This document shows, piece after piece, positions 21,265-24,394 of a stretch of 44,634 nucleotides of DNA. The notes beneath the pieces are model-generated. The model saw only the letters and a list, made by a program, of their open reading frames with translations. It did no database searches and was not told the origin of the DNA. This stretch comes from Cellulosimicrobium composti (GTDB lineage Bacteria > Actinomycetota > Actinomycetes > Actinomycetales > Cellulomonadaceae). Position numbers and translations under genes: made by a program. The stretch covers positions 1 through 44,634 of the forward strand of contig NZ_WMKA01000033.1 in assembly GCF_009711085.1 (NCBI RefSeq). Direction: 5' to 3'. The number at the start of each line of letters is the position of its first letter. The first letter of the stretch is position 1.

Positions 21265-21395
21265 CGAGGCTCTCCTGTGCGGGTCCGTGCGGCGGTTGCC
21301 GCGGGCGATCGGTCGTGACGGTAACACCGGCGGCCCCCGCGCTGTTCCCGCGGGTGCGTCGTCCCCACCGCCCCCCGCGTGTCACCGAGGCCTGA

Positions 21396-21401
21396 GAGAA
21401 T
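21396..21401 (+). promoter_or_regulatory. -10-like element of a likely leaderless mRNA (uvrD2)
   Basis: GAGAAT ends seven bases before the ATG at 21409 (spacer CGCGGTG). No ribosome binding site is visible. Confidence 0.55.
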
Positions 21402-21408
21402 CGCGGTG

Positions 21409-23463
21409 ATGTCCACGCCACCGGTCTCACGCCCGCCGTCCCTCCGCTCCGCCGACGAGATCCTCGACGCGCTCGACCCGGACCAGCGCGACGTCGCCGT
21501 CGCGCTGCGCGGTCCCGTCTGCGTCCTGGCCGGGGCCGGGACGGGCAAGACGCGCGCGATCACGCACCGGATCGCCTACGGGGTGCGCACCGGCGTGTAC
21601 GTGCCGACGAGCGTGCTCGCCGTGACGTTCACGGCGCGCGCGGCGGGGGAGATGCGCACGCGCCTGCGCGAGCTCGGCGCGACGGGCGTGCAGGCGCGCA
21701 CGTTCCACGCCGCCGCGCTGCGCCAGCTCGGCTACTTCTGGCCCAAGGTCGTCGGGGGCGCGCCGCCGCGCATCCTCGAGCACAAGGCCCCGGTGATCGC
21801 GGAGTCGGCCCGCCGGCTCGGCGTCGGCGTCGACCGCGTCGCGGTGCGGGACCTCTCGTCGGAGGTCGAGTGGGCCAAGGTCTCGCTCGTCACCGCCGAC
21901 GACTACGTCCGCGCGTGCGAGGCGATCGACCGCGAGCCGCCCGCGGGCTACGACCACCAGACGGTCGCGCGTCTCATCACGGCGTACGAGGACGTCAAGA
22001 CGGAGCGGTCGGTCATCGACTTCGAGGACGTGCTCCTCATGCTGGGGGACATGCTCGCGACGCAGGGCGGGGTCGCGGACGAGGTGCGGCGCCAGTACCG
22101 CCACTTCGTCGTCGACGAGTACCAGGACGTCTCCCCGCTCCAGCAGTTCGTGCTCGACCAGTGGCTCGGGGGCCGCGACGAGCTGTGCGTCGTGGGCGAC
22201 CCGTCGCAGACGATCTACTCGTTCACGGGCGCGACGCCGCACCACCTCCTGACGTTCCAGCGCACCCACCCGAACGCCCAGGTCATCCGGCTCGTGCGCG
22301 ACTACCGCTCGACGCCGCAGGTGGTGAACCTCGCGAACCAGCTCCTCGCGCGCGCGGGTCGCGCAGGCGGGGCGCACCAGGCGCTCGAGCTCGTCGCGCA
22401 GCGCCCGGCCGGACCGCCCGTCGCGTTCACGGCGTACGACGACGACGAGGCCGAGGCGACCGGGATCGCCCAGCGGATCTCGCGCCTGCTCGCGGCGGGC
22501 ACGCGGGCGAGCGAGATCGCGGTCCTCTACCGGACGAACGCGCAGTCGGAGGCGTTCGAGTCCGCGCTCGCCGACGCGGGCATCGGCTACCTCGTCCGCG
22601 GTGGGGAGCGGTTCTTCCAGCGCAAGGAGGTGCGCGACGCGATCGTGCTGCTGCGTGGTGCCGCGCGCTCCGCGGACCCGGACGCGCCGATGCCCGAGAC
22701 GGTGCGCGACGTCCTCGCCGCCGCGGGCTGGGCGCCCGAGCCGCCCGCGGCGCGCGGCGCGGCGCGCGAGCGCTGGGAGTCGACGCAGGCGCTCGTCGCG
22801 CTCGCGGACGACCTCGCTGCGCTCGCCGCGGCGTCGGACGCCCCCGCCCCGACGGTCGCGGCGTTCGTCGCCGAGCTCGACGAGCGGGCCTCCGCGCAGC
22901 ACGCGCCCACGGTGGAGGGCGTGACGCTCGCGTCGCTCCACGCGGCCAAGGGCCTCGAGTGGGACGCCGTGTTCCTCGCGGGCATGAGCGAGGGGCTCAT
23001 GCCGATCTCGCTCGCCGAGACCGACGAGGCGGTCGCGGAGGAGCGTCGCCTCCTGTACGTCGGCATCACCCGGGCGCGCGAGCACCTGGAGCTCTCGTTC
23101 GCGCGGTCGAGGAACCCGGGTGGCCGGGCCACGCGCCGTCGCACGCGCTTCCTCGACGGCCTGTGGCCGGACGAGCCGGGCGCGCACGGCCCGCGCCGGT
23201 CGCGCAGCGGGCAGGCGAAGGTGCGGCTCACGGGCGAGTACGACCAGGAGCTGTTCGAGAGCCTGCGCGAGTGGCGCCGCCAGGTCGCGGAGGAGACGGA
23301 CAAGCCGGCGTTCACGGTGCTCGTGGACACGACGCTCGCGGCGATCGCGGAGACCCGGCCGACCAGCACCGCGGCGCTCGCCCGGATCAGCGGGCTCGGG
23401 CCCGCCAAGATCGAGCGGTACGGCGCGACGATCCTCGACATCGTGAGCCGCGCGGAGCGTTGA
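21409..23463 (+). CDS. uvrD2: SF1A DNA helicase UvrD2 with HRDC domain
   Basis: 684 residues. A 3'-to-5' DNA helicase of the UvrD/PcrA group. Motifs: Q-motif region DPDQRDVA, Walker A LAGAGTGKT (about 40-48), TFTARAAGEM (Ia), VVDEYQDVSPLQ (II, about 236), GDPSQTIYSFTGA (III), YRSTPQVV (IV), LASLHAAKGLEWDAVFL (V) and YVGITRAREHLELS (VI). The last 70 residues form an HRDC domain (LAAIAETRPTSTAALARISG). Mycobacterial UvrD2 has, from memory, a tetracysteine module just before HRDC; here that segment contains no Cys at all. The ATG at 21409 is supported by the -10 element seven bases upstream and the lack of motifs before it. Confidence 0.94.
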   Translation: MSTPPVSRPPSLRSADEILDALDPDQRDVAVALRGPVCVLAGAGTGKTRAITHRIAYGVRTGVYVPTSVLAVTFTARAAGEMRTRLRELGATGVQARTFHAAALRQLGYFWPKVVGGAPPRILEHKAPVIAESARRLGVGVDRVAVRDLSSEVEWAKVSLVTADDYVRACEAIDREPPAGYDHQTVARLITAYEDVKTERSVIDFEDVLLMLGDMLATQGGVADEVRRQYRHFVVDEYQDVSPLQQFVLDQWLGGRDELCVVGDPSQTIYSFTGATPHHLLTFQRTHPNAQVIRLVRDYRSTPQVVNLANQLLARAGRAGGAHQALELVAQRPAGPPVAFTAYDDDEAEATGIAQRISRLLAAGTRASEIAVLYRTNAQSEAFESALADAGIGYLVRGGERFFQRKEVRDAIVLLRGAARSADPDAPMPETVRDVLAAAGWAPEPPAARGAARERWESTQALVALADDLAALAAASDAPAPTVAAFVAELDERASAQHAPTVEGVTLASLHAAKGLEWDAVFLAGMSEGLMPISLAETDEAVAEERRLLYVGITRAREHLELSFARSRNPGGRATRRRTRFLDGLWPDEPGAHGPRRSRSGQAKVRLTGEYDQELFESLREWRRQVAEETDKPAFTVLVDTTLAAIAETRPTSTAALARISGLGPAKIERYGATILDIVSRAER

Positions 23464-23529
23464 GGTGCGCCGGTCCCGGCGTCCGGAGGGGCCGGCGAGA
23501 ACTCGTCGAGAAAAAGTCTCGTAAATAAG

Positions 23530-23559
23530 TTGTGCGCCCTGCGAGGTGCGTCATATGGT
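23530..23559 (+). promoter_or_regulatory. whiB7 promoter with AT-rich upstream block
   Basis: A -35-like TTGTGC (23530-23535) and a -10-like TATGGT (23554-23559) are separated by 18 bases. Directly upstream, 23508-23529 (GAGAAAAAGTCTCG then TAAATAAG) is one of the most AT-rich patches in the window. WhiB7 proteins carry an AT-hook and are known to activate promoters with an AT-rich block next to -35, including their own. Start of transcription would be near 23566, giving a leader of about 400 bases. Confidence 0.65.
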
Positions 23560-23629
23560 CGACGAGTCCTGTTGGAGAGGGGCGCGCCGAAAGGTGCGCT
23601 CCGAACGGAGAGAGGGGGTGGGAAAGCTG

Positions 23630-23785
23630 ATGAAGAACCAGATCGCGATGGCGAACCTGCTGGATAACGCGTCCGTGTGCACGGGCACGCCAGGAGGACT
23701 CCGTCCGCGTGCAGCCGCGCTCCGCGGCGGCATTCTCGTCACCCGCCCCGCTCCCGACTCCGCCTCCAGGACACGACTGGTCTGA
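23630..23785 (+). CDS. Candidate upstream ORF (51 codons) in the whiB7 leader
   Basis: An ATG at 23630 opens a frame starting MKNQIAMANLLDNASVC and stopping at TGA 23783-23785. A purine-rich stretch (GGAGAGAGGGGGTGGGAAAG, 23607-23626) lies just before it; an in-frame GTG at 23618 is an alternative start. The first 15 codons look less GC-biased than normal genes here. The codons at 23696-23703 can pair with the left arm of the downstream terminator, and the stop codon lies in the loop of a small hairpin (23777-23793). This arrangement suggests a translation-sensing leader peptide, as known for whiB7 genes in other actinobacteria. The function is in the act of translation, so residue conservation may be low. 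Confidence 0.5.
   Translation: MKNQIAMANLLDNASVCTGTPGGLRPRAAALRGGILVTRPAPDSASRTRLV
23696..23703 (+). promoter_or_regulatory. Candidate antiterminator arm
   Basis: GGACTCCG here is exactly complementary to CGGAGTCC at 23808-23815, which forms part of the left arm of the leader terminator. Pairing would break the terminator. The segment covers codons 23-25 of the candidate upstream ORF, so a translating ribosome would hide it. Confidence 0.45.
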
Positions 23786-23793
23786 CCGACCAG
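23777..23793 (+). promoter_or_regulatory. Small hairpin at the upstream-ORF stop codon
   Basis: Arms CTGGTC (23777-23782) and GACCAG (23788-23793) with loop TGACC. The loop contains the TGA stop of the upstream ORF, so a terminating ribosome would open this structure just before the terminator is made. Confidence 0.45.
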
Positions 23794-23802
23794 AACCTTC
23801 CA

Positions 23803-23842
23803 GGCCGCGGAGTCCGTCTCGGACCCGTGGCCTTCGTGTTCT
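23803..23842 (+). terminator. Attenuator (intrinsic terminator) inside the whiB7 leader
   Basis: Left arm 23803-23816 and right arm 23820-23832 form a GC-rich hairpin with a three-base loop (TCT), one mismatch and one bulge, followed by the T-rich run TTCGTGTTCT (23833-23842). It lies about 120 bases before the whiB7 start and would stop transcription before the gene unless the alternative pairing with 23696-23703 forms. Confidence 0.6.
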
Positions 23843-23962
23843 CCGAGCACGTCTGCCGATGAGGATCACCGGCGTCTCCCGTCAGCATCGACGGGACCGC
23901 TGTCCTCAGGGTCCTGTGACGACGACGTTCACACCCACGACAGGACATCACTGGAGGACATC

Positions 23963-24394
23963 GTGCGGCTCACCGCGCTGCTCGACAACATCACTGCCCA
24001 GGGCGGATCCGGCCCCTGGGTCCCCCACCAACCGCTGGCCACCCCGCTGGGCGAGAAGGACTCCGCGGAGTTCGACCGTCTCCTCGCAGGCCTGCTGCCC
24101 TGCCGCACCAACGACCCGGAGCTCTGGTTCGCCGAGCGCACCGCCGAGGTCGAGGAGGCCAAGGCCCTGTGCCGCACGTGCCCCCTCGTCGAGGGCTGCC
24201 TCGCCGGCGCGGTCGAGCGCCGCGAGCCCTGGGGCGTCTGGGGCGGCGAGGTCTTCGTGGACGGCGTCGTCGTCGCGCGCAAGCGCGGCCGCGGCCGTCC
24301 GAGCAAGGCCGAGGTGCTCGCCCGGGAGGCCGAGCGCCAGGCGCAGGAGGCCGCTCGGGCCGAGGCGTCAGTCGGCGCCTCGACGGCGGCCTGA
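23963..24394 (+). CDS. whiB7: WhiB7-type iron-sulfur transcription factor
   Basis: 143 residues. The four iron-sulfur cysteines are one in LPCRTNDPELWF (about 48) and three in ALCRTCPLVEGC (about 71-80). The sigma-factor-contact turn EPWGVWGGE follows at about 90-98. It ends in an AT-hook, KRGRGRPSK (about 109-117), which separates WhiB7 from other WhiB proteins, then an Ala/Glu-rich helix. WhiB7 activates intrinsic antibiotic-resistance genes when translation is inhibited. The GTG at 23963 has a strong ribosome binding site (GGAGGA, four bases before it). The long structured leader and position after uvrD2 match the mycobacterial locus. The 3' end overlaps the convergent ThiF-like gene by 27 bases. 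Confidence 0.9.
   Translation: MRLTALLDNITAQGGSGPWVPHQPLATPLGEKDSAEFDRLLAGLLPCRTNDPELWFAERTAEVEEAKALCRTCPLVEGCLAGAVERREPWGVWGGEVFVDGVVVARKRGRGRPSKAEVLAREAERQAQEAARAEASVGASTAA

Follow-up and report, generated by a model that had tools for sequence, protein, structure and literature searches.

A probable ribosome-controlled attenuator ahead of whiB7 in Cellulosimicrobium composti, with a predicted antiterminator strand near the end of the leader reading frame

We propose that the whiB7 leader of Cellulosimicrobium composti is very probably a transcription attenuator under ribosome control, of the type known for whiB7/wblC, with its antiterminator strand at 23756-23763. Positions are those of the window, the whole stretch of 44,634 nucleotides that was analysed (assembly GCF_009711085.1, contig NZ_WMKA01000033.1, forward strand), and the features are collected in Table 1. 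The proposal draws on predicted RNA folds and on a comparison of related leaders, which points to conserved parts, pairing and spacing, codon constraint and some co-variation; the order of events, the positions of the ribosome and the response to drug are what we infer.

An initial annotation of this DNA had described an attenuator that senses the translation of an upstream open reading frame (uORF), with free translation leading to the terminator and a stalled ribosome to read-through. The present analysis supports that model, but not the antiterminator that was named for it, 23696-23703. Its premise that attenuation by uORFs is established for whiB7 agrees with excerpts of PMC11550727 and PMC10727445, which give the same model.

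The whiB7 gene and its leader

Judging from the sequence of its product, the gene downstream of the leader is a whiB7 orthologue. A Pfam search returned Whib and a search of solved structures placed WhiB7 first (E 3.9e-26), with WhiB4 second (E 2.9e-8); an NCBIfam search of the product gave no match at E 0.001. The protein is 98% identical to that of locus L001, 94-97% identical to those of L002-L008 (all labelled Cellulosimicrobium) and, over the matched part, 61% identical to the Streptomyces copies L075-L079. The record of L001 (QAPD01000006.1) is titled Sphaerisporangium cinnabarinum ATCC 31213, has a whiB7 locus of the Cellulosimicrobium type and is possibly mislabelled. Directly upstream of whiB7 lies a superfamily I helicase gene, UvrD/PcrA-like (21379-23463), a neighbourhood that we take to be similar to that of other actinobacteria.

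For the comparison, 109 loci together with the window yielded 94 unique leaders (L081, being the window itself, was skipped). The terminator annotated at 23803-23842 was recovered, and a canonical one is present in 86 of the 94 leaders, with none found in three and a non-canonical or spurious one in five. uORFs were chosen by an automatic score of Shine-Dalgarno sequence (SD) and start; 80/94 leaders have a predicted uORF with a score of at least 8, those scoring lower being left out of the uORF counts, and the 80 uORFs range from 37 to 74 codons. In the window the score picked a longer in-frame start, which was trimmed to ATG 23630. The 51-codon frame first annotated there is present with its SD and is conserved, with in-frame indels among relatives, and its peptide is little constrained (199 nonsynonymous and 68 synonymous codon changes in 17 relatives compared with the window).

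Upstream of the uORF, the promoter-like elements of the initial annotation (23530-23559) can be read as described and are kept with few changes in an alignment of 23 close leaders, from Cellulosimicrobium and Oerskovia; the adjoining AT-rich box AAATAAG presumably resembles the WhiB7 autoregulation site. Between the promoter-like site and the uORF ribosome-binding site (RBS) sits a GNRA hairpin (GCCGARAGGC type). A paired 3-bp GNRA hairpin is present here in 64 of 80 leaders, with a mean of 10.9 and a maximum of 23 in shuffles (200 rounds). Folding of the leader from 23566 to 23962, a check that the annotation had suggested, gives a z of -5.7, more than chance.

A covariance model of the segment found one strong match in the organism's own genome, the whiB7 leader (E 2.7e-20; the next at 0.15), in a search that scored 150 of 7285 first-look candidates, and at E 0.01 with stricter filters it matched 90/101 genomes of the same family. 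Of 40 leaders fetched from other families of the class, 33 contain, ahead of the gene, a hairpin at -21 kcal/mol or below that is followed by a T-rich tail. Rfam, searched over the whole window at the gathering score, returned nothing but one tRNA.

Table 1. Positions of the leader and gene features in the window
Feature	Position	Strand	Remarks
Promoter-like site	23523..23559	+	AAATAAG 23523-23529; -35-like TTGTGC 23530-23535; -10-like TATGGT 23554-23559
5' hairpin, GAAA (GNRA) tetraloop	23579..23602	+	Upstream of uORF RBS; from fold of leader
uORF ribosome-binding region	23606..23629	+	SD AGGGGGT 23613-23619; co-varies with antiterminator region
uORF	23630..23785	+	ATG 23630, 51 codons, TGA 23783-23785; SD; frame kept
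Complement named by the initial annotation	23696..23703	+	Judged a by-product of Gly-Leu-Arg coding
Arg25-Pro26-Arg27, +X+ motif	23702..23710	+	Codons 25-27; P-site codon 23705-23707
Predicted antiterminator strand, GACTCCGC	23756..23763	+	Codons 43-45; from comparison, codon null and folds
Stop-codon hairpin	23777..23793	+	Stem 23777-23782/23788-23793; predicted apex of composite antiterminator
Intrinsic terminator	23802..23843	+	Hairpin 23802-23833 (-25.6 kcal/mol), then T-rich tail
Left-arm segment of terminator, GCGGAGTC	23807..23814	+	Partner of 23756-23763
whiB7 CDS	23963..24394	+	GTG start, SD GGAGG; Pfam Whib; WhiB7 top among solved structures

The antiterminator strand, the stop-codon hairpin and the terminator

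The segment GACTCCGC at 23756-23763 is a perfect 8-base match to the terminator arm at 23807-23814, and with G-U allowed it pairs with the left arm in 23/23 close leaders. Its place is nearly fixed: in 45 of the 80 uORFs the 8-mer starts 27 nt ahead of the stop and in 22 it starts 30 nt ahead (67/80), while the remaining starts are at 33 nt in two uORFs, 36 nt in one and 18 nt in one, and in 9/80 it was not found in the last 45 nt. Five leaders (L062, L105, L110, L043 and L071) retain the terminator and the uORF although their 8-mer has moved, is truncated or is absent, and possibly use alternative registers. In an alignment of 51 of 78 segments, from which near-duplicates had been dropped by hand, strand and left arm pair in 96.1% of cells, against 31-49% when one is slid along the other. 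For the terminator hairpin, 98.6% of cells pair.

Compensatory changes in the partner bases were seen in two lineages. Two-sided changes occur at two of the eight pairs, in five cells, a result reached by 0/500 shuffles for cells and 11/500 for pairs; further pair types in the same 51 rows were not above shuffles (165/500). The clearest case is that of L061 and L106, in which terminator GTGGAGTC stands opposite GACTCCAC, the segments having been extracted by a search for the changed 8-mer and the uORF start being poorly placed. Leader L102 has one A-U replaced by G-C and its first pair broken, and two Streptomyces rows have two-sided changes in an alignment register that is doubtful. The Streptomyces leaders L075-L079, the terminators of which are similar in sequence, use another register, with CCGCGGAA pairing with TTCCGCGG or TTCCGTGG. 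Their uORF candidates have WSDPA at the end and the antiterminator register TTCCGYGG with CCGCGGAA.

Coding demands were separated from RNA demands by a codon null, in which uORF pieces were given random synonymous codons and scored by how well they pair with the left arm. For the site ahead of the stop in 26 mutually dissimilar uORFs, chosen by a similarity cut, the observed pairing sum was reached by 0/1000 draws with the codon usage of the window genes and by 2/1000 with that of the uORFs; the significance lies in the sum over leaders, with no single leader below 0.05 at this site. The serine codon here is TCC in 72/72 scored uORFs, compared with 24 of 93 serine codons across five genes of the window. 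When strands were swapped among 38 leaders the pairing with the left arm was barely weaker, 509/5000 swaps being as good. On this comparative evidence, the synonymous sites of 23756-23763 are constrained at the RNA level and the segment is conserved as expected of a real antiterminator strand; comparison and folds together indicate an antiterminator built from uORF and terminator sequence, 23756-23763 with 23807-23814.

The hairpin that the annotation had drawn around the uORF stop was also read in the sequence, the complete TGA lying inside its 5-nt loop. The stop is enclosed by at least 4 bp of local fold in 73/76 leaders, with differing stems and as a count without a null of its own, the exceptions being L062, L074 and L105, and the local fold energies have a mean z of -2.2 against plain shuffles. 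We read the stop hairpin and the 8-bp helix as a composite antiterminator, predicted to carry the stop codon at its apex.

Folds of the window leader describe the competition. In transcripts ending at 23817 or 23826, the antiterminator is predicted with a probability of 0.90-0.99 over six states; in naked RNA that includes the left arm but lacks the right one, 23756-23763 and the left arm are joined at 0.96-0.98. In transcripts extended to 23834 or 23845, the terminator is at 0.97-0.98 in all six states. Since the finished terminator wins at equilibrium in every state, the predicted switch must be kinetic. When 23766-23797 is masked, as by a ribosome on the stop, the antiterminator still forms in the model (0.93 and 0.90) because the folding takes no account of steric blocking.

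The arrest motif and the ribosome-binding site

The uORF peptide has a conserved feature of its own. A [RK]-x-[RK] motif is found in 78/80 uORFs, compared with a mean of 33.3 and a maximum of 48 in composition shuffles, and R-x-R in 77/80 (mean 22.6, maximum 39; 2000 rounds each). Among the 26 dissimilar uORFs, 24 have +X+ (shuffles 11.3, maximum 19) and 23 have RxR (shuffles 7.5, maximum 15; 5000 rounds), and in 133 windows of 51 residues from six ordinary proteins of the window the frequencies are 43% and 41%, respectively. In L010 and L018 the first Arg is lost and a new one lies two residues past the second, so that the motif is retained. In other families, +X+ occurs in 15 of 17 well-placed uORFs (null 7.9, 0/5000) and in 22 of 33 leaders, out of the 40 fetched, with a terminator and some uORF (null 13.9, 10/5000). 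RxR alone was not enriched in the former set (8/17, null 6.1, 963/5000) and occurs in 13 of the latter 33 (null 9.7, 556/5000).

The usual footprint of a ribosome is about 15 nt each way. The P-site codon of the motif lies 51 nt before the antiterminator strand, and the gap between the X codon in the P site and the strand is at least 16 nt in 69/70 scored leaders. Because of that footprint, a ribosome stalled at +X+ would leave the strand free and cover 23696-23703. According to excerpts of PMC8298421, leader ORFs of resistance genes make use of +X+ as a motif at which ketolides and macrolides cause arrest, X being in the P site. By its sequence the leader peptide carries such a macrolide arrest motif of the erm type, and the conserved Arg-X-Arg is likely the point at which a macrolide would stop the ribosome.

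A second signal links the RBS of the uORF with the antiterminator region. When 24-nt windows were mapped against each other (7 x 10) in 38 leaders, hand-picked for diversity from the organism's own family and its near kin, this pair had the strongest native energy (-21.8) and, of the 70 window pairs, the strongest signal of native over permuted (z -4.7, 0/1000), with signals of up to z -4.0 in neighbouring windows and of z -2 to -2.7 in a few distant ones. In 15 leaders of other families, compared without first locating the antiterminator strand, there was no clear signal. In partition-function folds of 29 leaders, also hand-picked for diversity, the RBS pairs with the antiterminator region in 27 as long as the left arm has yet to be transcribed. 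After transcription of the left arm, and with no ribosome, the helix of strand and left arm has a probability of at least 0.5 in 27/29 (not L018 and L067); in 24 of those 27 (not L048, L059 and L069), roughly five RBS pairs or more are retained on the stretch 5' to the 8-mer.

What might this pairing do? If it were a protector in the manner of the trp 1:2 helix, an untranslated leader would terminate, and a loaded, stalled ribosome would be needed for read-through. The prominence of the pairing in the map and its presence in 27/29 folds before the left arm speak for such a role, but nearly all of the ribosome-free leaders form the strand/left-arm helix all the same, the RBS pairing and this helix mostly coexist at equilibrium in the 29 naked leaders where 1:2 pairing of the trp type would be exclusive, and the signal was not found in the 15 leaders of other families; a protector is unlikely and lacks support at equilibrium. 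From the folds, we consider it more plausible that the pairing serves as a latch that would close the uORF to later ribosomes.

We tentatively suggest, and hold it as a possibility below even chances, that whiB7 uORFs are built drug sensors, in which arrest at +X+ leaves the strand bare, complemented in this family by an RBS latch. As a sensor, the almost neutral peptide would retain +X+ at the position that frees the strand. As a latch, the uORF RBS would fold onto the segment beside the strand once the antiterminator forms, such that no later ribosome could enter to undo it and the first ribosomes would decide.

Proposed mechanism, alternatives and known systems

In the attenuator that we propose, RNA polymerase would transcribe the leader and the uORF would be translated at once. 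A ribosome reaching the stop (23783) would open the stop-codon hairpin and sit between 23756-23763 and the left arm, keeping the two apart, so that the terminator 23802-23843 would form and transcription end. With the ribosome stalled further upstream, for instance by a macrolide at Arg-X-Arg, 51 nt short of the antiterminator strand, 23756-23763 could join 23807-23814 ahead of the synthesis of the right arm, the two being drawn together by the intervening stop-codon hairpin. The left arm would then be consumed and the polymerase would continue into whiB7.

Alternatively, there might be no switch, the terminator only lowering basal read-through and WhiB7 controlling whiB7 at the promoter. The conserved promoter-like site with its AT-rich box fits this, and feedback at the whiB7 promoter has been published (PMC13393426, in excerpt), but the fixed place of 23756-23763, its codon constraint and co-variation and the stop hairpin would all be left unexplained, and we regard promoter control alone as very improbable.

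Least probable of all, and scarcely credible, is that 23696-23703 is the antiterminator strand, hidden while codons 23-25 are translated: its perfect 8-base complementarity to 23808-23815 is present exactly as first described and 14/23 close leaders can pair there with G-U allowed, but it is missing or broken in the other nine, five of them Oerskovia with the segment deleted (L013-L017), as seen in the comparison with relatives that the annotation had called for; in the synonymous-codon null at the Arg-X-Arg site that holds it (23 uORFs), 977 and 550 of 1000 draws were as good (z -1.8 or -0.1); its pairing probability in the folds is 0.00; and, given the usual footprint, a ribosome stopped at Arg25-Pro26-Arg27 would cover it. 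In many genera the Arg-X-Arg codon region is complementary to the terminator; this match was considered as a second antiterminator and rejected, being within synonymous-codon expectation. The comparison places the conserved strand 60 nt beyond 23696-23703.

The type of switch proposed here is known. A whiB7/wblC transcription attenuator with a uORF was reportedly described in Streptomyces and mycobacteria by Lee, Lee and Roe in 2022 and by Burian and Thompson in 2018, and the antiterminator at 23756-23763 may already be mapped in earlier literature. Control of whiB7/wblC by uORF, terminator and antiterminator appears in excerpts of PMC11550727, PMC4128351, PMC10727445, PMC13393426, PMC13236596 and PMC12121999, the last of which, a 2025 paper, states in its excerpt that stalling of ribosomes by antibiotics within the whiB7 uORF was untested. 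The present leader is alike in its gene, uORF, intrinsic terminator and antiterminator from overlapping uORF and terminator sequence, and no difference in logic is apparent; its particulars are the strand in codons 43-45, +X+ in the uORF and the co-variation of the RBS. No paper with +X+ or the RBS pairing for whiB7 uORFs was found in the titles and abstract starts among the matches listed, an absence that is no proof.

Two other groups of leaders invite comparison. Leader peptides of the erm type, such as ErmDL, likewise have a short leader ORF with Arg-X-Arg ahead of a resistance gene; there, according to excerpts of PMC8298421, the stall of ErmDL refolds the mRNA and ErmD is expressed, whereas here the stall would act on a transcription terminator and control the gene of a regulator. 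In trp/ilv-type attenuators (M. tuberculosis ilvB1; PMC13236596, in excerpt), the choice between terminator and antiterminator is likewise set by the position of the ribosome on the leader ORF. Unlike in these, a series of regulatory codons for one amino-acid group was not seen here, and the antiterminator would have the stop codon at its apex.

whiB7 is a main switch of actinobacterial intrinsic resistance against ribosome-targeting drugs. The Arg-X-Arg motif singles out a codon to examine, and the new position of the antiterminator shows which bases to test.
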